From positions 1 to 57,131 of the forward strand of contig CAMZGD010000014.1 in the NCBI GenBank assembly GCA_947306365.1: DNA of 57,131 bases. The letters are read 5' to 3'. The notes beneath the pieces were generated by a model. The model did not search any database, had not been told where the DNA came from, and saw only the letters and a list, made by a program, of their open reading frames with translations. A program made the position numbers and the translations under genes. This document shows, in pieces, positions 2,365 to 35,073 of the stretch; position 1 is the first letter of the stretch; the number at the start of each line of letters is the position of its first letter. Origin of the DNA: an uncultured Bacteroidales bacterium. GTDB lineage: Bacteria; Bacteroidota; Bacteroidia; Bacteroidales; UBA932.

Positions 2365-2980
2365 ATTCGACATTGAACGCTTGCAATTCTTTCAAGCCTT
2401 GCTCAATGTCCTGCAGCTGCTGCGCGTGGCGTCTGCGCTGCCAGCGGGTCAGGACGAAGGCCAGTGCGATGGTCAGCACGATAAGCCCGATCATCACCGG
2501 GAGCCAGCCGTCCGTCATCACATAGCCGGCCGACTTTTTGAATCCCAGTTCATAGATGTAGCCGGCGATCAGCGCGAGGCTTACCACGATGATTTCGATG
2601 ACCGACTGGTTGTGGTAAACCTTCTCATAACGGAGCAGGAGTCCCCGCAGTTCGCTGCAACTCTTCCTTCCAAGGTCGAACTTCGAGAGCAGGAAGAGCT
2701 TCCAGATTTGCGGAATCAGCCCCGCCACCAGCAAGGCTTCGACAATTACGATCGTGACAACGCTGAGATGCGTAGTCAGCGCACAGATGACGGGGAAAAC
2801 CACGCAGGCCATGACGGCCGTCTGAATGAGGCTGTTGAGATTGGTCTGGCAGACCTGGTCATAAGCCGTCCTTGTATTTCCTTCTACGACTTGCCTTACC
2901 AGGCGCTGGTTCACGATTTCCGTTTCTGACAGACGCTGGTCGAGCGTATTCCAACTGTTTTTCAATGCATCGAGTTCCAT
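2363..2980 (-). CDS. Membrane protein paired with ECF sigma factor
   Basis: 205 residues. A charged N-terminal helix (about 1-50) is followed by four hydrophobic segments (roughly 55-75, 78-98, 125-145 and 155-178) and a basic, coiled C-terminus. I recognise no named domain. It starts 14 bp after the stop of the ECF sigma factor on the same strand, so they form a two-gene operon. In Bacteroidota such membrane partners often follow a sigma factor, and an anti-sigma or signal-input role is a positional inference. No zinc-binding anti-sigma HXXXCXXC motif is visible. Confidence 0.6.
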   Translation of the reverse strand: MELDALKNSWNTLDQRLSETEIVNQRLVRQVVEGNTRTAYDQVCQTNLNSLIQTAVMACVVFPVICALTTHLSVVTIVIVEALLVAGLIPQIWKLFLLSKFDLGRKSCSELRGLLLRYEKVYHNQSVIEIIVVSLALIAGYIYELGFKKSAGYVMTDGWLPVMIGLIVLTIALAFVLTRWQRRRHAQQLQDIEQGLKELQAFNVE

Positions 2981-2994
2981 GACAGTTTGTGTTT

Positions 2995-3486
2995 TTAACT
3001 GTTAGACATCTTTTTGAGTTTTTCTTTGATACGAGTGAGTTTTACGGCGACGTTGCCCTTGGAGATACCGAGGATATCGGCCATTTCCTGATAGCTGCGC
3101 TCTTCAAGCCAAAGGAGGATCAGCGCGCGTTCCAATTCGCCCAGGCCGTTGATGAGCCGGTAGAGTTCCTGCAGCTGGCCTGTCTTTCCTTCCTCGGCGG
3201 CGGCCTGCCAGGCCAGCTCCGTCGTCAGGGCGACGGTCCGGGGCCGTGCATTCGCCTGCCGGAGAAAAGAGATACAGGTGTTCAGGGCGATGCGGTAGAT
3301 CCAGGTACTCTGTTTACTTTCTCCCCGATAGTTCGGGAAACCTTTCCACAGGTTCAGGATGACTTCTTGATAAAGGTCATTCAGGTCGTCCTGCCCCTTG
3401 GCATACACATAGCACACTTTGTAGATAATCCGCTTATGTGCCGTAACCATCTCCAGGAATTCTTTCTCTGATTGCGTCGTTTCCAT
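2995..3486 (-). CDS. RNA polymerase ECF-type sigma-70 factor
   Basis: 163 residues, normal for the family. Region 2 (about 10-80) holds 'DLYQEVILNLWKGF' and the core-binding/-10 recognition helices. Region 4 (about 105-160) holds the helix-turn-helix 'MADILGISKGNVAVKLTRIK'. It redirects RNA polymerase to an unknown regulon. The partner membrane protein lies directly downstream. The pyr operon on the same strand ends upstream of it, with a strong hairpin (3570-3602) between them, so it probably has its own promoter in 3487-3569, although I see no clean TAnnTTTG box there. Confidence 0.9.
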   Translation of the reverse strand: METTQSEKEFLEMVTAHKRIIYKVCYVYAKGQDDLNDLYQEVILNLWKGFPNYRGESKQSTWIYRIALNTCISFLRQANARPRTVALTTELAWQAAAEEGKTGQLQELYRLINGLGELERALILLWLEERSYQEMADILGISKGNVAVKLTRIKEKLKKMSNS

Positions 3487-3569
3487 CAGGTTTTCTCAAT
3501 CGTTTGCCCCATTAGTCGCAGAAGGCGGTGGAAAATTACAGGATACGCGGAAAAAAGTTGCATCTAAAC

Positions 3570-3602
3570 GACGCAATCGGCCGTCTTGGGGCCGATTGCG
3601 TC
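3570..3602 (-). terminator. Hairpin after pyrB, probable pyr operon terminator
   Basis: A perfect 13-bp stem (GACGCAATCGGCC / GGCCGATTGCGTC) with a 7-nt loop begins 28 nt after the pyrB stop. The first T run in the minus-strand transcript lies about 12 nt beyond the stem, so this is either a weak intrinsic terminator or a 3'-end stabilising structure. Confidence 0.6.
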
Positions 3603-3629
3603 TCAAAAACCGTGAAGGACGTCCTGCTG

Positions 3630-4706
3630 TCAGATCTTCGACTCGCAGTAGGCGCAGCGGATGACGCCTTCGTCGGTGCGTTTGAAGTACGGGGTGACGG
3701 CTTCGTGGTTGCACATGCATTTGGGGTTGGTGCAGTGCAGCGCGGGATCCTGGAAGATGTCTTTCTTCTCCGGCATCGGGTGCTTCGGGTCGTCTTTCCA
3801 GTCGATGAGCGACTTGATGAGCGCCATGCGGACGTACTTGCCGCAGGCCACCTGGCGGAAGTAGGCGGCGCGCGGATCCGCGTCGACTTCGGTGAGGATC
3901 TCGTTCACGCGCGGCAGCGGATGCAGCACGGCCATGTTTTTCTTGGCGAGTTTCATCTTCTCGGCGTTGAGGATGAAGTTGTCCTTGAGCCGGTCGAATT
4001 CGTCCTGGTCGAGGAAGCGCTCCTTCTGGACGCGCGTCATATAGAGGATGTCGAGGTGCGGCATCGCTTCTTCAATCGAATCGACCTCTTCGTACGGAAT
4101 GCCCTTGCGGTCGCAGACGTCGTGGCGGATGTATTCCGGAAGTTTGAGCGCGTCGGGGGCGATGAGGTAGACCTTGATGCCTTCATAGGCCGAGAGGGCC
4201 TTGATGAGGGAGTGGACGGTACGGCCGAAGCGCAGGTCGCCGCAGAAACCGATGGTCAGGTTGTCGATGTGGCCGAGTTCGCGGTGGATGGTCAGCAGGT
4301 CCGTGAGCGTCTGCGTCGGATGGCTGTGGCTGCCGTCGCCGGCGTTGATGATGGGCACCGGGGACACTTCGGAGGCGGCCAGCGGCGCACCCTCGATGGG
4401 ATGGCGCATCGCGATGATGTCGGCGAAGCAGGCAAGGACGCGGACGGTGTCCTGGACGGTCTCGCCCTTGGAGACGGACGAGCGGGCGGCGTCGGAGAAG
4501 CCGAGGACCTGGCCGCCGAGTTCCTTCATGGCGGCGGTAAAGCTCAGGCGGGTGCGGGTGCTGGGCTCGTAGAAGAGGGTGGCGAGTTTCTTGTGGGCCA
4601 TGGCCTCATAGTACTCCTCGGGATGCTCGATGATCTGGTCGGCCAGGGCGATGATTTCGCTGATTTCGGCGCGGGTCAGGTCGGTGGGTTCGATCAGGTG
4701 TTTCAT
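3630..4706 (-). CDS. pyrB: Aspartate carbamoyltransferase with PyrI-like zinc domain
   Basis: 358 residues, about 50 more than a usual catalytic chain. It condenses carbamoyl phosphate and aspartate, the committed step of pyrimidine synthesis. The catalytic part (1-305) has the carbamoyl-phosphate loop 'STRTR' near residue 50, '[10 protein letters not shown]' near 123 and 'HPLPRV' near 260. The added C-terminus carries C325-x4-C330 and C351-x2-C354, the same spacing as the zinc site of the separate regulatory chain PyrI, with similar surrounding residues ('NHEAV', 'RCAYCE'). The nucleotide-binding domain of PyrI is absent. It is the last gene of the pyr operon, 13 bp after pyrE. Confidence 0.93.
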
Positions 4707-4719
4707 GGTGTGTATTTGA

Positions 4720-5370
4720 TTAATTGTTTGTTTTCATCCAGGAGGCGTCGGCGGGGTTGTCGCGGAACTTCAGGATCCGCTGCCGCCAATCCGGCGCGAT
4801 GCGGCCTTCTTCGACGGCGACTTCGAGGAGGGCGTCGAGGTTGCTCAGGGAGTGGTTCGTGGTCCCGGCGGCAGCGAGGCGCTCCAGGCCGCGCTGCATC
4901 CCATACGTGAAGATGCTGACGATGCCGAGAACGTCGGCGCCTGCTTCGCGCAGGGCTTCGACGGTCTCCACGGCGCTGCCGGCGGTCGAAATCAGGTCTT
5001 CCACCACCACGGTCTTCGCGCCCGGTTCCAGCTTGCCCTCGATGCGGTTGGTCCGGCCGTGGCTCTTGTTCTCGCCGCGGACATAGCCCATCGGGAGACC
5101 GAGTATCTGGGCGGTGAGGGCTGCGTGGGCGATACCGGCCGTGGAAGTCCCCATCAGCAGGCGACAGGAAGGATAATGGGTGCGGACGAGTTCGGCGAGG
5201 CCGTCTTCGACGCGGTCGCGTACCGCAGGGGCGGTCAGGATGAGCCGGTTGTCGCAGTAGATGGGGCTCTGGATGCCGCTGGCCCAGGTGAAGGGCTGCT
5301 CGGGGCGCAGGAACACGGCGCCGATGGAAAGCAGGTCGCGGGCAATGTTTTTTTCGGTGCTGTCAACCAT
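4720..5370 (-). CDS. pyrE: Orotate phosphoribosyltransferase
   Basis: 216 residues. It joins orotate and PRPP to form OMP. The PRPP-binding motif '[13 protein letters not shown]' is at 121-133, and the orotate/PRPP contact stretch 'RGENKSHGR' is near 98-106. It sits between pyrF and pyrB in the minus-strand operon, with gaps of 5 and 13 bp, so it is surely co-transcribed. Length and motifs are normal for a type I phosphoribosyltransferase. Cytoplasmic. Confidence 0.95.
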
Positions 5371-5375
5371 GGGTA

Positions 5376-6098
5376 TTATCGGGTTTGGAGGGTTTCAGGA
5401 CAAAAATCGGAGAGGCAGCGCCGCCAGGCGGCACAGGGATCGGCAGCGGCCGTAATGGGCCGTCCGACGACGATGAAGTCGGAACCGATTTCCCGCGCCC
5501 GGGCGGGCGTGGTCACGCGTACCTGGTCATCCGCCGCCGCATCGGCGAAACGGATACCGGGCGTGACGGCCAGGAATTCCGGTCCGCAGGCCGCTTTGAC
5601 CAGCGAGGCTTCCAGCGGGGAGCAGACCACGCCGTCGAGTCCGGCCTCGCGTGCGTTGCGGGCGTAGTGGGCGATGCATTCGTCGATACTGGCATCGACC
5701 AGCAGTTCCCGTTGCATGCGTTCTTCGCTCGTGGACGTAAGCTGGGTTACGGCAATCAGCAGCGGCCGGGTGCCGTCGGGGCGCGTGAGCCCTTCCCGGG
5801 CGGCGCGCATCATTTCGATGGTGCCGGCGGCGTGGACGTTGCACAGGTCGATGTCGAGTGCGGAAAGCACGCGCATCGTTTTCCGGACGGTGTTGGGGAT
5901 GTCGTGGAGCTTGAGGTCGAGGAAGATGCGGTGGCCGCGCCGTTTCAACTGGCGGACCATCTCCGGCCCTTCGGCGTAATAGAGTTCCATACCGATCTTC
6001 AGGAACGGCTTCCGGGCTTCCTGCGCGAAGCAATCCAGGAAGTTGAAGGTCTCTGCGGCGCTGCCGAAATCACAGGCGATGATGACGTCTTTGTTCAT
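5376..6098 (-). CDS. pyrF: Orotidine 5'-phosphate decarboxylase
   Basis: 240 residues from the start at 6098. It decarboxylates OMP to UMP. The catalytic DxKxxD signature is visible as D61-K63-D66 in 'LDLKLHDIPNTV'; 'VTPGIR' and 'VVGRPI' are the phosphate-binding loops of the barrel. The frame is open to 6125, which would add nine residues, but that start lies inside the inverted-repeat element at 6117-6235, and alignment to family N-termini favours 'MNKDVIIACDFG'. It is the fourth gene of the pyr operon, and the only one preceded by a gap of more than 100 bp. Confidence 0.93.
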   Translation of the reverse strand: MNKDVIIACDFGSAAETFNFLDCFAQEARKPFLKIGMELYYAEGPEMVRQLKRRGHRIFLDLKLHDIPNTVRKTMRVLSALDIDLCNVHAAGTIEMMRAAREGLTRPDGTRPLLIAVTQLTSTSEERMQRELLVDASIDECIAHYARNAREAGLDGVVCSPLEASLVKAACGPEFLAVTPGIRFADAAADDQVRVTTPARAREIGSDFIVVGRPITAAADPCAAWRRCLSDFCPETLQTR

Positions 6099-6116
6099 GG
6101 AAATATCAATTGCCGT

Positions 6117-6235
6117 GATCTTCATTCTATTTCAAGACTACGGACCCTTCGGGTCCTATCCCTCCCAAGCAGAGCTTGGGCCCCTCCCACTCACGGCTGC
6201 GTGGGCGCAGACGGTCTTGAAATAGAATGAAGATC
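6117..6235. repeat. Palindromic element between pyrD and pyrF
   Basis: Arms of 22 bp (6117-6138 and 6214-6235) are perfect reverse complements and enclose 75 bp. Inside are further hairpins: GGACCCTTCGGGTCC at 6142-6156, which has a cUUCGg tetraloop, CCCAAG...CTTGGG around 6164-6180, and CCCAC...GTGGG around 6186-6204. The whole unit sits within a polycistronic operon. It looks like a non-coding mobile or repeated palindrome, or an RNA processing or stability structure. I cannot see other copies of the arms in this window. Confidence 0.75.
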
Positions 6236-7888: not shown

Positions 7889-9188
7889 GGCAGTGACATT
7901 GGCACGTACATTCACAGTCGGGGTCTTTCCATACCAGCCGGCCGTCCTTCCAGGTCATGCGGACCGCGCCGTTGACGTGCATTCCGTCAAACGGCGTGGC
8001 GTGTCCTTTCGAAAGGAATGTCCGGCTGTCGATCGTATGGATGGCCTGCAGGTCGATGGCGGTCAAGTCGGCGCGCTCGCCTTCCCGCAGGGCGCCGCCG
8101 AGCCGGAAAATCCGGCGCGGGGTGGCGCAGAGGGCGTCGAGCAGCCGCTCCAGCGAGAGTTTCCCGGTCTTGACCAATGCCGTATATACTACGGGAAAGG
8201 CGGTCTCGAGCCCCACGATTCCCATCGCGCTGCCCGCGAGTCCGCGGGCTTTCTCTTCCGCCGTATGGGGCGCATGGTCGGTGGCGATGGCGTCGATGGC
8301 GCCGTCTTTCAGTCCCTCGACGAGTGCGTCGCGGTCTTCCGCGGTGCGGAGCGGGGGATTCATCTTGAAGCGGCCGTCTTCCTGGAGGTCGTCTTCGCAC
8401 AGTGTGAGATAGTGGGGTGCGGTCTCGCAGGTGACGCGGACGCCGCTTCGTTTCGCCTGGCGGATGAATTCCACGCTTTCTTTCGTGGAGACGTGGCAGA
8501 CGTGGTAGCGGCAGCCGGTACGGGCGGCCAGTTCCAGGTCACGTGCGATCGGCCCCCATTCGCTTTCGGCGCAAATCCCCTTGTGGCCATGCGCTTTGCA
8601 CCAGCGGCCGTCGTGGATGTAGCCGCCGCGGAGCAGCGTGTCGTCTTCGCAATGGGCGGCCAGGATGCAGTCCAGTTCCGCGGCCCGCCGCATCGCTTCC
8701 AGCATCACTTCCTCACGCTGGACGCCGCTTCCGTCATCGGAAAAAGCGACGCAGCGGCCCTTCAGCGCCTCGAAATCCACGGGCTCCAGTCCCTTCCGCC
8801 CCCGGGTGATGGTGGCGTAGGGGAGCACCTCGATGCAGGCGTCCCGGTCGATCAGCGCCTGTTCGACGGCCAGCGTTTCCGGACTGTCCGGCGCCGGATT
8901 CAGGTTGGGCATCGCACAGACGGTGGTGTAGCCGCCCCGCGCCGCGGCCAGCGAGCCGGTCCGGATGGTTTCCTTCTGCGGCGCTCCGGGCTCCCGGAAA
9001 TGCACGTGCAGGTCGGCGAAGCCATAGGAGAGCAGCATGCCTGCCAGATTCACTACTTCCATTTCTGGCGATGCCGGGATGAACTCCCTGATTTCCTTGA
9101 TGATGCCGTCAGCAATGAGCACGTCGCGCGGGGTCAGCAGTTCCGGACCCGTCATCATCAATCCGTTTTTCAGCAGCAACTCTTTCAT
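7881..9188 (-). CDS. pyrC: Dihydroorotase with Cys/His-rich tail
   Basis: 435 residues from 9188. It is an amidohydrolase-fold enzyme that closes carbamoyl-aspartate to dihydroorotate. The metal ligands H61 and H63 lie in 'HVHFREPG', and 'ATDHAPH' carries the catalytic Asp, so this is a class I type dihydroorotase. The extreme C-terminus is odd: it ends DCECTCQCHCHE, with five cysteines alternating with other residues (C425, 427, 429, 431, 433) and two histidines. It is the first gene of the pyr operon and starts 6 nt after a terminator-like hairpin and T run in its leader. Confidence 0.93.
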   Translation of the reverse strand: MKELLLKNGLMMTGPELLTPRDVLIADGIIKEIREFIPASPEMEVVNLAGMLLSYGFADLHVHFREPGAPQKETIRTGSLAAARGGYTTVCAMPNLNPAPDSPETLAVEQALIDRDACIEVLPYATITRGRKGLEPVDFEALKGRCVAFSDDGSGVQREEVMLEAMRRAAELDCILAAHCEDDTLLRGGYIHDGRWCKAHGHKGICAESEWGPIARDLELAARTGCRYHVCHVSTKESVEFIRQAKRSGVRVTCETAPHYLTLCEDDLQEDGRFKMNPPLRTAEDRDALVEGLKDGAIDAIATDHAPHTAEEKARGLAGSAMGIVGLETAFPVVYTALVKTGKLSLERLLDALCATPRRIFRLGGALREGERADLTAIDLQAIHTIDSRTFLSKGHATPFDGMHVNGAVRMTWKDGRLVWKDPDCECTCQCHCHE

Positions 9189-9418: not shown

Positions 9419-9886
9419 ATGAAAGTCAGCATCATTATGGGGTCGGGGAGCGATTGGGAGGTAATGAAAGCCGCCTGCGAAACCCTCGACGCATTCGGCG
9501 TGCCTTATGAGAAGAAGGTGATCAGCGCCCATCGTACGCCGCAGTATTTCAGTGAATATATGGCCGGCCTGCCGGAGCGGGGCTTCGGCATCGTGATTGC
9601 CGGAGCGGGCGGTGCGGCGCATCTTCCGGGTATGGCCGCCGCCCTGACCACCCTGCCGGTGATCGGCATCCCGATCCGCAGCAAGGCGCTGAACGGGATG
9701 GACTCGCTGCTCTCGATCGTCCAGATGCCGAGCGGCATCCCCGTGGCGACGATGGCCATCGACGGGGCCAAGAACGCCGCGCTCTATGCCGTGGCGGTGC
9801 TGGCGCTGCACGATCCGGCATTGGCGGTGAAACTGAAGGATTTCCGTGCCGCCCAGGCCGAGAAAGTGCTCAAAACCGAGATTTAA
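9419..9886 (+). CDS. purE: N5-carboxyaminoimidazole ribonucleotide mutase
   Basis: 155 residues from the ATG at 9419; an upstream TTG would only add six residues. It converts N5-CAIR to CAIR in purine synthesis. 'GSGSDW' (8-13) and 'SAHRTP' (36-41, with the catalytic His) mark a class I PurE. Class I normally needs PurK, which is not in the window. It is the first gene of the plus-strand purine operon, 12 bp before purL. Confidence 0.95.
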
Positions 9887-29672: not shown

Positions 29673-29744
29673 GGCCCTGTAGTTCAACGGATAGAATGGA
29701 GGTTTCCTAAACCTTAGATGGCGGTTCGATTCCGCCCGGGGCTA
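29673..29744 (+). tRNA. tRNA-Arg (CCT)
   Basis: 72 nt. The anticodon stem GAGGT/ACCTT encloses the loop TTCCTAA with anticodon CCT. The T arm is GGCGG-TTCGATT-CCGCC, and the D arm is short. Pair 1-72 is G-U. CCA is not encoded. A phage integrase gene starts 152 bp downstream, which marks this tRNA as the integration site. Confidence 0.9.
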
Positions 29745-29750
29745 CGAAAA
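29718..29750 (+). other. Probable attL at the 3' end of tRNA-Arg
   Basis: Tyrosine integrases of temperate phages commonly recombine within the T arm and 3' end of tRNA genes, restoring the tRNA. The integrase directly downstream reads away from this tRNA. The matching attR would lie beyond the right edge, so the core cannot be delimited. Confidence 0.5.
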
Positions 29751-29895: not shown

Positions 29896-31161
29896 ATGGC
29901 TACTTTCAAACTGGCGGTTTCCAATCACTTGAGGGCCGATGGAACACGGAACGTCCGGATCCGCGTCATCCATAACCGCGAGGCGAAATATATTTCCACA
30001 AACCACTACGTTGAGGACACCGCCATCACGAAGACCGGCAAGATTAAGGACCAGGATATAGTCGACGCCGTGGACGATACCATCCGCGAAATGCGGAGGG
30101 CGGTCGGCAAGCTGGGCTATTCGTCAAAGTCCCTTTCCTGCGCCGAGCTCTGCAGCCATATAGAGAGGGAACTGCTGCGAAAGGATTTCCACCTGCCGTT
30201 CATCGCGTATGGCAGAAAGAAGATCGCGTCGAAGAAGGCGTCCACCGCTGCGACCTACGAAACCACCTTCGCGGCCATCCTCCGATACACGGGAGGCCGC
30301 GACCCTGACATAACGGAGATAACAGCCAAGTGGCTGACCGGCTTCGTGGAGTTTCTGGAGGTTGAGGCCGGGAAAAAGGGCGGCAGGGCAACGACGCACT
30401 ATCCGGCGGACATCAGGCACATCTTCAATTTGGCCAGGGCAGACTACAACGATGAGGACATCGGATCCATCCTCATATCGCACAACCCGTTTGCAAAGTT
30501 CCGCGTCGGCAAGCCTCGCGCCTCAGAGCACAGGAACGTGAGCCGCGAGATCATACAGGCGCTTATCGACCTTCCGTCGCACAGCGACCCGATCGCCCGG
30601 GGCAGGGGGGACCATGACGTCAGGAACCTTGCAAGGGACTGCTTCCTGATCTCGTTCGCCCTGATGGGCATCAACGCCGCGGATCTGTGGGAGCTGCAGC
30701 GCCCGGTGGACGGCGTTCTCACATACGAGCGAAAAAAGACACGCGACAGGAGGGAGGACCGGGCCGTGATGCGCATCCTTATTCCAAGCGAAATAGAGCC
30801 GATTCTGGCGGCGCATCTCGCGAAAGGTAAAACTACCCGTCTTTTCAATTTCCGAGAACGATACAGGACGTATGGCGGCTTCCAAACGGCGCTGAACGTC
30901 GGCCTCCGGAGAATATGCGAGGATCAGGGGTGGCCGAAGTTCACGTTCTACTCGGCCAGGCATTCATGGGCGACGCTGGCGGCGAACGAGGCCGGCATAG
31001 ACAAATGGACGGTTCATACCGCCCTCAACCACGTGGACCGCTCGACAGCTGTCACGGACATCTACATCGCAAAAGATTTCCGTCCGCTCTGGGATGCGAA
31101 CAAGAAGGTGCTGGATCTGTTCGACTGGACGTCGGTCACTCCTTCTGCGCCCGGTCGTTGA
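29896..31161 (+). CDS. int: Phage tyrosine integrase
   Basis: 421 residues. An N-terminal arm-binding region and a SAM-like core-binding domain (about 95-190) are followed by the catalytic domain. The C-terminal box 'FYSARHSWATLAANEAG' holds the conserved RHxxW-type catalytic residues (near 350-357), and the nucleophile is the Tyr in 'TDIYIAKDF' near 390. It performs site-specific integration and excision, here apparently at tRNA-Arg(CCT). Its end overlaps a convergent small gene by 26 bp. Confidence 0.95.
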   Translation: MATFKLAVSNHLRADGTRNVRIRVIHNREAKYISTNHYVEDTAITKTGKIKDQDIVDAVDDTIREMRRAVGKLGYSSKSLSCAELCSHIERELLRKDFHLPFIAYGRKKIASKKASTAATYETTFAAILRYTGGRDPDITEITAKWLTGFVEFLEVEAGKKGGRATTHYPADIRHIFNLARADYNDEDIGSILISHNPFAKFRVGKPRASEHRNVSREIIQALIDLPSHSDPIARGRGDHDVRNLARDCFLISFALMGINAADLWELQRPVDGVLTYERKKTRDRREDRAVMRILIPSEIEPILAAHLAKGKTTRLFNFRERYRTYGGFQTALNVGLRRICEDQGWPKFTFYSARHSWATLAANEAGIDKWTVHTALNHVDRSTAVTDIYIAKDFRPLWDANKKVLDLFDWTSVTPSAPGR

Positions 31162-31820: not shown

Positions 31821-32042
31821 ATGTGTGAAACAAATTGGGGTTTTGACCGTGGATTCAAGCAGCTCAGGCTTTGTGATGTCGAGGCCGTAAGGTCGGAAAT
31901 CATGTCGGCGCTGAAGATCGCGACAAATATGAGCTTTCTGCGCCGAAAATCCGGAGTCATCGAGCCGAAGATCAGCGAAGCGAAAGCCATAGAAGCGATT
32001 TTCGCGAAGCGGGGTATCACCGATATATGGGGGGCTGCATGA
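31821..32042 (+). CDS. Small early protein, possible Cro-like regulator
   Basis: 73 residues. It is the first gene to the right of the switch. It looks helical with a basic stretch 'MSFLRRKSGVIEPK'. 'DVEAVRSEIMSALKIA' followed by 'KISEAKAIEAIFAKRGI' could form a helix-turn-helix, but I see no clear signature. Position argues for a Cro- or CII-type control protein. Its stop overlaps the next start in ATGA. Confidence 0.55.
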   Translation: MCETNWGFDRGFKQLRLCDVEAVRSEIMSALKIATNMSFLRRKSGVIEPKISEAKAIEAIFAKRGITDIWGAA

Positions 32043-32362
32043 TGGGACTCCAGGAACCGATAACACTTGACCACCGCGTCATCATGGAGTTCGCCTCCCT
32101 GGTCGCCGACATGGTCCTCGCCAAGCAGGAGCCGGTGCAGGATTCCATCAGCCAGCGAAAGGCGGAGGAGCTCTATGGACGCACCTGGCTCAAGTATCAC
32201 CTTGAGAGGGGGGATATCCGTGCGCGGAGGCAAGGACAGGCGAAGAATTCCCCGATAACCTACTCCCGGAGCGAACTGCGGGCCATATACGTTGCCGAAT
32301 GCCAGCTCACCTGCCGGATCAAGACGAGATTCGAGAATGAGAAAAATGAGAAAAAGAAGTGA
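32039..32362 (+). CDS. Small early protein, possible DNA-binding
   Basis: 107 residues starting at the ATG that overlaps the previous stop. It is helical, with a very basic C-terminus (ends EKKK). 'QRKAEELYGRTWLKYHLERG' resembles the winged-helix start of excisionase-like proteins, followed by the wing-like 'DIRARRQG'. I recognise no named family. Confidence 0.5.
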   Translation: MMGLQEPITLDHRVIMEFASLVADMVLAKQEPVQDSISQRKAEELYGRTWLKYHLERGDIRARRQGQAKNSPITYSRSELRAIYVAECQLTCRIKTRFENEKNEKKK

Positions 32363-32415
32363 GAAACTTAACTTATAAGTGAAATATGTAAAAACCGACT
32401 TAAAAATGCTCGTGA

Positions 32416-32739
32416 ATGGAACACAAAATCTACAATTTGCAGGCTGGACTCCTGGTGGGGTTCACTTGCCTCCTGGCGGTCGCACTTTGCGCGAATGCCG
32501 TCCAGGCAATGGCCGGAACGGCCACGTTCGCCTATTGGCACTGGATCACCCTTCTGCTGCTGGTCAGACTGACCAGGTCGGCAGTGTCGTGGGTGACGGT
32601 TGCCAGGTGGACAATCATGTTGAAAACCACTTTGAGAAAGGCTGTAAACCCGCGCCGGCGGGCATTCACGAGCATCAACAGGGCGGTTCGCAGCCTGACC
32701 GCCCTGTTTTCATCCCATCATATACAAACTGATCCATGA
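32416..32739 (+). CDS. Small membrane protein
   Basis: 107 residues. A hydrophobic segment near 11-30 and a second near 38-55 are followed by a basic tail. An alternative frame starting at 32379 overlaps it but gives a Gly/Pro/Arg-rich product with no folding pattern, so this frame is preferred. Its stop overlaps the next start in ATGA, which supports real translation. Family unknown. Confidence 0.45.
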   Translation: MEHKIYNLQAGLLVGFTCLLAVALCANAVQAMAGTATFAYWHWITLLLLVRLTRSAVSWVTVARWTIMLKTTLRKAVNPRRRAFTSINRAVRSLTALFSSHHIQTDP

Positions 32740-32981
32740 CGGAATGCCATAAGATCTCGGAAATGCTGGACCGCCTCGATGTGCTTGAGCAGAGAATAGA
32801 GGTGATAGAGGAGGAGCGCAGCCGTGTTTTCAATCAAACCGAGGCGGCGAAATATCTCGGTATATCCCGCCCGACGTTGAGGGCGCACACCAAATACGGA
32901 TTGATAGCACCGCTGCCAGGAACTACGAAGTTCCTGAAGAAAGAACTTGACAGATATAAGAATATACACTCAAAATTATAA
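32736..32981 (+). CDS. Excisionase-like helix-turn-helix protein
   Basis: 81 residues. After an N-terminal coiled coil ('RLDVLEQRIEVIEEERS') comes a MerR/excisionase-type winged helix: 'FNQTEAAKYLGISRPTLRAH' and 'LPGTTKFLKKELDRY'. Such proteins act as excisionases or transcription factors. The start overlaps the preceding stop. Confidence 0.7.
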   Translation: MTECHKISEMLDRLDVLEQRIEVIEEERSRVFNQTEAAKYLGISRPTLRAHTKYGLIAPLPGTTKFLKKELDRYKNIHSKL

Positions 32982-32984
32982 CCA

Positions 32985-33275
32985 ATGGAGAAAAGCATTA
33001 TCAGAACTTATTCAGCTGGCGTATTCTACGGAGAAGTAGAAAAGATAGAACATGAAGTATCCGGCGTCGGCGTAACAATCCGGAACTGCCGCAGGATCTG
33101 GCGATGGGAAGGCGCCGCATCGTTATCACAGCTTGCGAAGGAAGGCCCAGGCCGGCCTGGTAGTAAAATCACCGTTGCTATCGACCAAATGCAGGTCTTC
33201 GGCGTCATTGAGATCATTCCTTGCTCGGAAAAGGCAGTCATGTCCATAGAATCGACGAAAGCATGGCGTGTTTAG
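32985..33275 (+). CDS. DUF6948-like phage protein
   Basis: 96 residues. The order 'IIRTYSAGVFYG', 'NCRRIWRWEGAASLSQLA', 'EIIPCSEKAVMSIE' is one I recognise from a small family (DUF6948) widespread in phages. Function unknown. It starts 3 bp after the excisionase-like gene, and its end overlaps the repeat-bearing gene by 13 bp. Confidence 0.6.
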   Translation: MEKSIIRTYSAGVFYGEVEKIEHEVSGVGVTIRNCRRIWRWEGAASLSQLAKEGPGRPGSKITVAIDQMQVFGVIEIIPCSEKAVMSIESTKAWRV

Positions 33276-34024
33276 TTGATTTGGACGATAAAGTCAAAGC
33301 TTTTCTAAAAATTAGCTCTGGCTCTGGCGATGGCTCTGGCGATGGCTCTGGCGATGGCTATGGCTCTGGCTCTGGCGATGGCTATGGCTCTGGCGATGGC
33401 TATGGCGATGGCTATGGCTCTGGCTCTGGCTATGGCTCTGGCTCTGGCGATGGCTCTGGCGATGGCTATGGCTCTGGCTATGGCTCTGGCTCTGGCTATG
33501 GCTATGGCTATGGCTCTGGCTCTGGCTATGGCTCTGGCTATGGCTATGGCTATTTAAGGAAATTCTGCGGTCAGCGTGTAATCTACATCGACGGCTTACC
33601 AACGATAATCGACTGTATCCATGAGGAGCGATTTGCAACCGCCAGGGTGGTCAACAATGATTTAACTACGTCAGAGTGCTTCATCGCTCGTGTTGGAAAT
33701 TCCTTTGCGCACGGGGCCACATTAAAAGATGCCTATAACGATGCCCGTTCAAAGCATTTTCAAAATATGCCGGTTGAGGATCGAATCGCCGCCTTCGTTG
33801 CGGCTCACCCGGATATTGACGGCTTATACGGGGATCTGTTCAAGTGGCACAACATCCTCACCGGAAGTTGCGAATTCGGTCGCAGGGAGTGGTGCAGGAT
33901 GCACGGCTTGAAGCCCGATGATACCATTACGATCCGCCGGTTCCTGGAAGAGACACGAAACGAATACGGCGGTCAGATTATCGAAAAGCTAATCGATACA
34001 TATAGGCGCATGAGGCTGTTGTGA
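33263..34024 (+). CDS. Phage protein with 40 Gly-Ser/Asp/Tyr dipeptides
   Basis: 253 residues from 33263, a start that overlaps the previous gene; an upstream GTG is less likely. The N-terminal 17 residues are followed by 80 residues made only of G-S, G-D and G-Y pairs (18-97), then by a globular domain of about 155 residues ('GQRVIYIDGLPTIIDCIHEE', later 'HGLKPDDTITIRRFLEETR'). The globular part resembles a phage family I know as DUF7666, often seen with such low-complexity stretches. Function unknown. A flexible, low-complexity linker is the plain reading. Confidence 0.7.
   Translation: MACLVDLDDKVKAFLKISSGSGDGSGDGSGDGYGSGSGDGYGSGDGYGDGYGSGSGYGSGSGDGSGDGYGSGYGSGSGYGYGYGSGSGYGSGYGYGYLRKFCGQRVIYIDGLPTIIDCIHEERFATARVVNNDLTTSECFIARVGNSFAHGATLKDAYNDARSKHFQNMPVEDRIAAFVAAHPDIDGLYGDLFKWHNILTGSCEFGRREWCRMHGLKPDDTITIRRFLEETRNEYGGQIIEKLIDTYRRMRLL
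33314..33553 (+). repeat. Forty 6-bp tandem units, GGC(TCT/GAT/TAT)
   Basis: The stretch is 240 bp of in-frame hexamers with no spacer, each GGC followed by TCT, GAT or TAT (the first unit is AGCTCT). The wobble base is fixed as T in the second codon and C in Gly, so the repetition is at the DNA level, not only the protein level. All units are 6 bp, so slippage keeps the reading frame. Confidence 0.95.
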
Positions 34025-34032
34025 CAACGCTT

Positions 34033-34112
34033 TGGCAGGTGGCCCATGCTGGGGGCCGGATGGGTAATTAGTGCGACAAATCATCCTCCGGGTTCGATTC
34101 CCGGCCTGCCGC
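34033..34112 (+). ncRNA. tRNA-like element with 19-nt anticodon loop
   Basis: Acceptor pairing TGGCAGG/CCTGCCG (34033-34039 with 34105-34111, one T-G), U8, a D-type stem GCCC/GGGC, an anticodon-type stem GGATG/CATCC and a canonical T arm CCGGG-TTCGATT-CCCGG are all present. The anticodon loop, however, has 19 nt (34063-34081) where 7 are normal, and the variable loop is 1 nt. It cannot be an ordinary tRNA. It may be a decayed tRNA with an insertion, or a tRNA mimic. It lies 28 bp before the replication gene. Confidence 0.6.
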
Positions 34113-34122
34113 GAAGAAATAT

Positions 34123-34133
34123 GCACTAATTAC
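34123..34133 (+). promoter_or_regulatory. Segment complementary to the tRNA-like loop
   Basis: GCACTAATTAC is the exact reverse complement of 34064-34074 in the loop of the upstream tRNA-like element. It ends 7 nt before the replication-gene ATG, where a ribosome would bind. No Shine-Dalgarno sequence is visible in the gap. Confidence 0.5.
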
Positions 34134-34140
34134 TGAGACT

Positions 34141-35073
34141 ATGGCACGACCACTTAAAAGAGGGCTGGCGTTCTGGCGGAAGGATGTAGACTTCTACTCA
34201 GACCCGAAGGTACGTAAGCTCATGCGCCGGGAGGGCGCTGCAGCCGCGACGATCCTCGACTGCATTTTTTGCAAGATCTATCATGAGGGCTGGTTCCTCA
34301 AGATCGACGAGGATATCATCGAAGATATCTCGACCGAAACGTTCACGTCATCGGACCTGGTGTTGAGGGTTATCGAGCTCTCCGTCCAGATCGGATTTTT
34401 CCATGAGGGATTCTACAGGAACAATTCGGTCCTGACCGGGTTAACGTTGCAATCAAAGTACGTTTCTGCAACATTAAGACGACAGAAACCCGATTCAGAT
34501 TTACAATATTGGCTGCTGAACGGGATTATTGCAGACAATAACCCAGTTAATGACTGCAATAATGGGGATATTGTAAACAATAATTCGGAAAATAATATAA
34601 TACAAGATAATAGTATACTATATTCTTCTTCTTGTAGTAGTATAGTAGATAAAGAAAAAGAAGAAATTTTTTTGATTTTTTATTTGAAAAACGTCAAGGA
34701 CTTTCGTGGAGAATTCCATCGGTTCGTGGCTTACTATGCAAGCCGGAACTGGAAGACCGGGGAAGGGGAGCAGATCCGGAACATCCTGGACGTCGCCCAG
34801 GCTTGGGATCCACAACACGCGGACCGGCGGTTATCTGACACCGGCCTTGCGCTGATGGCGCAGATTGCCTCAAAGCTCAGGCTGCACAACGTGCCGATCA
34901 GCGAAAGAAAATTCCTGCTGGACGTTGAGGCGCTATACTTCGAACCTTCGAAGATTACGATTCAATGCTCGGAAAACTCCAGAGAATTTCTTGAAAGCCA
35001 TATCGATATCATCGCGCCTGTCGTGAGGCAGTATGCGCCTGGTATAACCTACATGGTCCGGACACAAAGCTGA
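34141..35073 (+). CDS. Phage replication protein with DUF4373-like N-terminus
   Basis: 310 residues. The N-terminal 'FWRKDVDFYSDPKVRKLMRR' and 'CIFCKIYHEGWFLKIDED' match the DUF4373 / Lin1244-type winged-helix domain found in phage and plasmid replication initiators (about 8-120). A low-complexity Asn/Ser/Asp-rich linker (about 128-175) follows, then a C-terminal helical region (about 180-310). Likely role: origin binding and primosome recruitment, as for lambda O. The linker coding sequence contains candidate iterons and an AT-rich stretch. Confidence 0.7.
   Translation: MARPLKRGLAFWRKDVDFYSDPKVRKLMRREGAAAATILDCIFCKIYHEGWFLKIDEDIIEDISTETFTSSDLVLRVIELSVQIGFFHEGFYRNNSVLTGLTLQSKYVSATLRRQKPDSDLQYWLLNGIIADNNPVNDCNNGDIVNNNSENNIIQDNSILYSSSCSSIVDKEKEEIFLIFYLKNVKDFRGEFHRFVAYYASRNWKTGEGEQIRNILDVAQAWDPQHADRRLSDTGLALMAQIASKLRLHNVPISERKFLLDVEALYFEPSKITIQCSENSREFLESHIDIIAPVVRQYAPGITYMVRTQS
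34529..34690. other. Candidate replication origin inside the initiator gene
   Basis: Three 21-bp units start at 34529, 34550 and 34571, each fitting nTG-N4-CAATAA (CAATAA at 34536, 34557 and 34578). A very AT-rich stretch follows (34584-34690) with the palindrome TAGTATACTA (34611-34620). The flanks are GC-balanced. The layout resembles lambda ori within gene O. Confidence 0.5.

Follow-up and report, generated by a model that had tools for sequence, protein, structure and literature searches.

The stretch of DNA analysed here (57,131 nt, hereafter the window) constitutes C14, one of the 34 contigs that make up a draft genome of 2.1 Mb. It contains a tRNA-Arg(CCT) gene (29673-29745) followed by an integrase-like gene (29896-31161), which together likely represent the attachment site of a prophage, and genes coding for terminase, portal and capsid proteins are found farther along. 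Only two tRNAs, a tRNA-Leu and a tRNA-Arg, were detected in the window by ARAGORN, and the same two only by Rfam at gathering score. The predicted replication initiator (Table 1) matches the Pfam domain Lin1244_N (PF14297) with an E value of 1e-17 and a PHROG named replication initiation protein with an E value of 7.1e-30; it was originally designated a DUF4373-type replication gene. An AT-rich tract within this gene carries inverted repeats (34525-34563 and 34604-34627) that constitute a candidate replication origin.

A tRNA-like element lies 29 nt ahead of the initiator ATG. Because the stop codon of the upstream gene is only 8 nt away from it, the element probably sits within one operon transcript with that gene. 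Region 32985-34024 of the window consists of a small conserved gene followed by a gene with long Gly-Tyr/Ser/Asp-Gly repeats (12- and 18-bp spacing).

Table 1. Coordinates of the tRNA-like element, its parts and the adjacent genes in the window.
Feature	Coordinates	Strand	Remarks
Upstream gene, Gly-Tyr/Ser/Asp repeats	33221..34024	+	stop codon 8 nt before the element
tRNA-like cloverleaf element, whole (79 nt)	34033..34111	+	MFE fold; scanner score
Acceptor stem, 5' strand	34033..34039	+	pairs with 34105-34111; 7 bp, one U-G
D-like arm GGCCC/GGGCC	34041..34057	+	stem 34041-34045/34053-34057
Anticodon-like arm	34058..34086	+	6-bp stem 34058-34063/34081-34086; 17-nt loop 34064-34080
Loop segment GTAATTAGTGC	34064..34074	+	complementary to rep leader
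T arm CCGGG(TTCGATT)CCCGG, canonical	34088..34104	+	
Acceptor stem, 3' strand	34105..34111	+	without encoded CCA
Rep leader segment GCACTAATTAC	34123..34133	+	loop complement; ends 7 nt before ATG
Replication initiator gene, 310 aa	34141..35073	+	Pfam PF14297 Lin1244_N; PHROG

Architecture of the tRNA-like element

Acceptor, D, anticodon and T stems follow each other in tRNA order at the coordinates first proposed, and the full cloverleaf is the MFE structure of the element folded alone (-35.4 kcal/mol). The anticodon loop was originally given as 19 nt, which holds if its stem is counted as 5 bp; with a 6-bp stem, the loop is 17 nt long. The presence of a tRNA-ordered element with an outsized anticodon loop before the replication gene is confirmed as a real observation. 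A cloverleaf scanner, written with the element already known, gave it a score of 52.6 versus a maximum of 28.6 in 571 kb of shuffled sequence (ten first-order shuffles of the window, one strand), and a relaxed scan gave 54.1 versus a shuffle maximum of 42.6. Its folding energy is unexceptional: 98 of 1000 shuffles do as well as the element (z -1.23), and 43 of 200 do as well as the 108-nt stretch (z -0.92). What lies beyond chance is the cloverleaf layout together with the complement described below, and not stability.

Neither ARAGORN nor Rfam at gathering score calls a tRNA at 34033-34111, and an ordinary tRNA was rejected with nothing near the Rfam threshold. Compared with the tRNA family (RF00005) and phage tRNAs, the element has the 7-bp acceptor, D arm and canonical T arm in the same order, along with U8 and the T loop TTCGATT. 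It differs from them by a 17-nt anticodon loop instead of one of 7 nt, by a 1-nt variable region and by the lack of a tRNA score or ARAGORN call; a spacing of only 1 nt between anticodon and T stems is abnormal for a tRNA. The description of the element as a tRNA mimic without a usable anticodon loop is supported.

Other RNA families were also rejected. tRNA-Sec (RF01852) scored 17.8 bits against a cut-off of 47, and bacterial Y RNA (Deinococcus_Y_RNA) 13.9 bits against a cut-off of 80, with 18 nt of the T arm only. Within 33950-34250, neither C4 antisense RNA (RF01695) nor PK-repBA (RF01089) appeared at E<=10, and the C4 covariance model gave no match at E<=10 across the element's own genome. 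The permissive Rfam search of this interval also returned mascRNA (15.4 bits) and one minus-strand match located outside the element.

Complementarity between the loop and the initiator leader

As originally proposed, eleven bases of the loop are perfectly complementary to the initiator leader just before the ATG (Table 1); the match is exact and each arm occurs only once in the window. The predicted duplex (-16.1 kcal/mol) has a p value of 0.0005 based on 2000 loop shuffles, and 11 bp were reached by 1 of 20,000 leader shuffles. When the surroundings of every ATG on the two strands of the window are compared (1836 contexts, true site included), three reach -16.1 kcal/mol or better. The loop duplex ranks the initiator first among the 39 plus-strand ORF starts in 29601-57131, the next reaching -10.7. 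Across the 57 kb, 11-bp inverted repeats whose arms start 40-90 nt apart fall into two clusters. The element hence displays a loop complementary (11 bp) to sequence beside a gene start, as C4-type RNAs do.

When the element is folded with the leader, the MFE structure contains the leader helix (-39.9 kcal/mol), the forced cloverleaf reaching -36.9 kcal/mol. As nested folds, cloverleaf and leader helix are predicted to be mutually exclusive and close in energy. The loop had been proposed to mask the translation start through a pseudoknot. It can indeed pair with the leader, but a strict pseudoknot of cloverleaf and leader helix appears doubtful, because the nested folds exclude each other and because an 11-nt linker would, by our estimate, have to span an 11-bp helix on the anticodon stem to the far end. 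A switch, or antisense action once the element is processed, would fit better than a strict pseudoknot.

Related elements in other phages and contigs

A search of 61 genomes with the initiator yielded, besides the window, three weak matches only, and a first scan of viral contigs yielded none. Matches at E 1e-8 or better were found in 10 of 393 genomes of the order, the window's own included. Two of these, loci L118 (genome G271) and L119 (G174), carry tRNA-like elements on the strand of the initiator, at distances of 344 and 371 nt upstream of it, and a third such element among the initiator-search matches, in G435, is cut by the contig end. An alignment search of genome contigs with the initiator gave 21 loci. 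Four of these are Bacteroidaceae MAG contigs sampled in the rectum or colon of ruminants (water deer, yak, water buffalo and goat), and all four carry the element (L134 = G271, L135, L136 = G435 and L137 = G174).

L134, L135 and L137 harbor three elements each, types i, ii and iii, with loops of 28-39, 18-19 and 59-74 nt, respectively. Type ii elements precede type iii elements and not directly a conserved gene. ARAGORN calls the type i element of one contig (L118, G271) tRNA-Gly(GCC) and makes no call for the elements of the window, L135 and L137. By eye, short hairpins were noticed just before several tRNA-like elements, in L134 before those at 3196 and about 3399, and similarly in L135 and L137; their stems change and they have in common a loop close to TTCACCTGCGACAGCGCGA.

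The viral alignment search with the initiator gave six loci, including L155, whose initiator is 53% identical to that of the window; a scan with both initiators found only the L155 contig again. A weaker cloverleaf lies directly before the L155 initiator, in a place equal to the window's, with a 6-bp acceptor, 5-bp D and T stems, an irregular anticodon arm and a 3' end GCCA; it is under the scanner threshold and was spotted by eye. The L155 initiator gene also has an AT-rich tract, like the window's. The exact T arm plus acceptor was found in no stretch of the viral contigs, and the element DNA matched, among 40 genomes of the genus, itself and one weak stretch of 27-28 nt. We report here that the window element has relatives and is not a lone case.

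In the fetched loci, 16 of 61 initiator-homolog rows score an element within 700 nt; these include repeat sites (copies of the window, G271 and G174) and one ordinary tRNA-Arg (L123). Four of the 45 rows scored without an element do contain one, namely L155, its duplicate L161 and the truncated L130 and L136. The other 41 rows, some of which may be duplicates and one of which had only 288 nt of upstream DNA, belong to initiators that are farther removed, with identities to the best query of about 42% or less, and show no element. Relatives that keep the replication gene while losing the element, or letting it and the loop complement vary at random, had originally been named as speaking against the proposed gating. 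The outcome is mixed: close relatives keep an element and change both loop and leader, and the distant carriers of the gene are without it.

The small upstream gene (32985-33275) has relatives in 62 viral contigs. Taking these with two MAG contigs, one of 64 loci bears an element at a scanner score of at least 43, L307, located 25 nt before an ORF. No element was detected in the scanned parts of G317 (12 of 16.5 kb) and G217 (8 of 54 kb).

Comparison of the tRNA shell and of the pairing among relatives

Stem pairs compared across ortholog pairs of types i to iii comprise 51 both-sided changes that keep the pairing, 4 one-sided and 4 broken changes. This count covers acceptor, anticodon and T-stem pairs, without D stems and minus two acceptors (type iii in G174, type i in L136); it leans to pairing since stems were taken from scanner output, and the pairwise comparison repeats some events. 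For the element of the window itself, the single comparison available is with L155, which is too diverged for such a count. The compensated stem changes in the related elements argue that the shell is a maintained RNA in these phages. Type ii loops keep AGCATCAC despite rewritten stems (L134:3196-3281, L135:4154-4241 and L137:3492-3577), and its exact complement is absent from the 2500-6200 stretch of these three contigs.

Compensatory changes had been suggested as a check on both the stems and the loop/leader pairing. For the pairing of loop and immediate leader, loop shuffling gave p values of 0.26 for L155, of 0.13 (G271), 0.21 (L135), 0.0055 (L136) and 0.27 (G174) for type i, of 0.43 (G271), 0.65 (G174) and 0.28 (L135) for type iii, and of 0.75 for L307. 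One of these nine other elements falls below 0.05 and eight are at chance level; loop/leader pairing hence does not hold as a general rule. The Fisher combination of the eight p values obtained by excluding the window and L307 is 0.03, from rows that are not independent. In L155, the longest loop/leader complement is 6 and the window repeat is not kept. Based on these comparisons, the pairing looks strong in the window, suggestive in type i of L136 and unproven elsewhere, and does not seem clearly shared among related phages.

The motif CTGCCATAA in type i loops is complementary to the initiator start TATGGCA in all four contigs. ATGGCA is a common gene start. The type i loop TGCCATA was rejected as a start-codon complement: TGCCA fits a tRNA-Gly(GCC) anticodon too, and duplex ranking puts the initiator in third place both in L135 (16 ORF starts) and in L136 (10 ORF starts), and not among the best 6 in G271 and G174. 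A type iii motif, GTGTTTTT, can be set against AAAAAACAC at the start of a resolvase-like gene in two of three contigs, a match of low complexity.

Expanded-loop elements in other phages

A wider pattern, in which a gap of 42-72 nt separates a canonical D arm from a T arm, retrieved at least 120 stretches from viral contigs. The same pattern matched in 5 of 393 genomes of the order, including G174's own type i element, and the reversed-pattern control gave none among the matches shown for these genomes. Many of the viral matches are class II or long-variable-arm tRNAs, or tandem tRNAs. From 120 of the at least 120 viral loci, we obtained 53 expanded-loop candidates (scanner score of at least 46, loops of 16-75 nt), 35 overlapping an ARAGORN tRNA call and 18 without; the respective numbers are 29, 15 and 14 in 80 loci and 24, 20 and 4 in the other 40. 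The ATG of an ORF of at least 50 codons follows within 45 nt in 8 of the 18 elements. For ordinary tRNAs in the same loci the figure is 154 of 743 overall, and 124 of 340 when those with another tRNA within 120 nt are set aside. Since ordinary phage tRNAs are about as often that close to a start codon, the position proves little, and we rejected it as a hallmark of such elements. The wider class is a lead and not a proven family. Five elements without ARAGORN overlap (L260:6987-7092, L264:1483-1596, L267:2332-2437, L233 minus strand 3332-3433 and L235:12571-12679) were each observed 10-34 nt before an ORF.

Lactobacillus phage Sha1 (L368) carries three tRNA-shelled elements, unannotated in its record, on the minus strand at about 31845-33149, between the repressor and integrase genes (lysogeny region). 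Their acceptor, D and T arms are near-identical and their middle segments differ. Rfam scores all three as tRNA (43-47 bits) and ARAGORN gives them tRNA identities. Their differing arms showed no target beyond chance at annotated gene starts, 281, 186 and 300 of 300 shuffles being as good.

Proposed function and alternative explanations

The C4 RNA of phages P1 and P7 is described, in the consulted portions of PMC5320573 and PMC11143913, as an RNA of about 77 nt with three stem-loops that is cut by RNase P from a larger transcript; one of its loops covers ribosome-binding sites, and variable loops set its specificity. In the best reading, the window element would work like the C4 antisense RNA of P1 while standing outside that family. 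Judging from the same portions, the two are alike in size (about 77 versus 79 nt), in having several stem-loops and in a loop complementary near a gene start. Unlike C4, the element has a complete tRNA cloverleaf as its shell, canonical T arm included, its complement lies in the leader of a replication initiator, it has no covariance-model match and its cutting by RNase P is putative.

Plasmid rep control offers a second parallel, RNA structure and antisense pairing governing initiator translation in the I-complex RepZ/RepA systems according to the part of PMC10724649 consulted. These systems and PK-repBA (RF01089) resemble the element by placing RNA structure at the translation of a replication initiator; they differ in that no PK-repBA match lies near the element, that the element has no known counter-transcript and that the same part of that article describes no tRNA shell for rep systems. 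Structured sites in phage or polycistronic mRNAs, such as the T4 gene 32 mRNA, are RNase P substrates as reported in the portion consulted of PMC11143913, which describes no full cloverleaves with a regulatory loop.

We tentatively favor the view that the element is a candidate non-decoding regulator, a processed tRNA shell that would gate the initiator through its loop. It would be transcribed as part of the operon, and the cloverleaf would form first as the RNA emerges, the leader helix competing later. RNase P recognises the acceptor/T-arm module, which the element carries, and RNase Z handles tRNAs without encoded CCA; these host enzymes could cut the ends of the element and free the rep leader. 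Should the element not be cut in time, the loop would capture the leader beside the start codon and less initiator would be synthesized. Excision could also let the element act in trans, by pairing with the leader that a second copy of the phage provides, as P1 C4 RNA does with its target. The loop would then be the variable, specificity-giving part and the tRNA shell the constant one. If the pairing in the window is real, initiator synthesis would depend on the speed at which host enzymes mature a tRNA mimic.

A maintained tRNA-like RNA could instead serve transcript processing alone, as RNase P/RNase Z punctuation to which the loop complement is irrelevant. This would account for a shell and stems that are kept while loops vary in sequence and length (17-74 nt), for leader pairing that is not general among related elements and for the short distances to the neighbouring genes (8 nt from the one upstream, 29 nt to the one downstream). 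It leaves unexplained the 11-bp complement of the window and the kept loop motifs CTGCCATAA (type i) and AGCATCAC (type ii), and closeness to a start codon is not clearly unlike that of ordinary phage tRNAs; we judge this explanation rather unlikely.

We also find it unlikely, to a somewhat greater degree, that the element is a free-standing small RNA shell with targets or partners elsewhere (a decoy, an antisense RNA against other phages or a bait for tRNA-binding proteins), the replication gene being a mere neighbour. Three related contigs that hold three elements apiece, with type iii coming after type ii, point in this direction, as do the three near-identical shells with different arms in the lysogeny region of Sha1, but no target of the Sha1 arms was found at annotated gene starts.

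A decayed tRNA gene with an insertion in the anticodon loop is improbable. Acceptor, D and T arms in tRNA order, the canonical T loop and the tRNA-Gly(GCC) call for the type i element of one contig are what a pseudo-tRNA would present, but the related elements compensate in their stems and recur at the same places, and their acceptors differ among types, hence they are not one decaying tRNA. Least probable is a DNA-level feature, the 11-bp inverted repeat being part of an operator or origin and the cloverleaf a by-product: the exact repeat does adjoin the initiator gene, but related elements pair as RNA with compensation, the repeat is not kept in L155 and the inverted repeats within the initiator gene are other origin candidates.

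Implications for phage tRNA-like elements

The tRNAs of phages are commonly interpreted as helping translation or as evading defences that cut tRNAs. Recurring tRNA shapes that lie between phage genes and are hardly fit to decode suggest that the tRNA fold and the tRNA-maturation enzymes of the host are put to regulatory use. Extending the processed-regulator reading of the window element, phages whose hosts are not related (Bacteroidales, Lactobacillus and others in IMG/VR) might share a standard tRNA-shell chassis that host enzymes cut and stabilise, with a freely evolving anticodon domain programmable for antisense or switch control of genes like the initiator, a generalization that we consider doubtful. 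Expanded-loop elements go unnoticed because ARAGORN misses several of them or assigns them tRNA identities (L118, Sha1). In the titles and abstract openings covered by our literature search, tRNA-like elements that have an expanded anticodon loop and precede a phage replication gene are not reported, and no mention of insertions or expanded loops was found in the text consulted of an eLife paper on anticodon-loop mutations (PMC10264068).

Further tRNA shells with near-identical acceptor, D and T arms and differing anticodon segments were observed at L252:8251-8341, 8581-8667 and 9465-9555 and at L229:3137, 4510, 6921, 7251 and 7512. Shortly after the small conserved gene, ARAGORN reports a tRNA-??? 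with a 6-nt anticodon loop at L360:1507-1578 and L361:6247-6318. In viral loci including L180, L187, L198, L240 and L246, phage tRNAs combine an anticodon loop of the CTTATAC (UAU) kind with a variable arm of unusual length.
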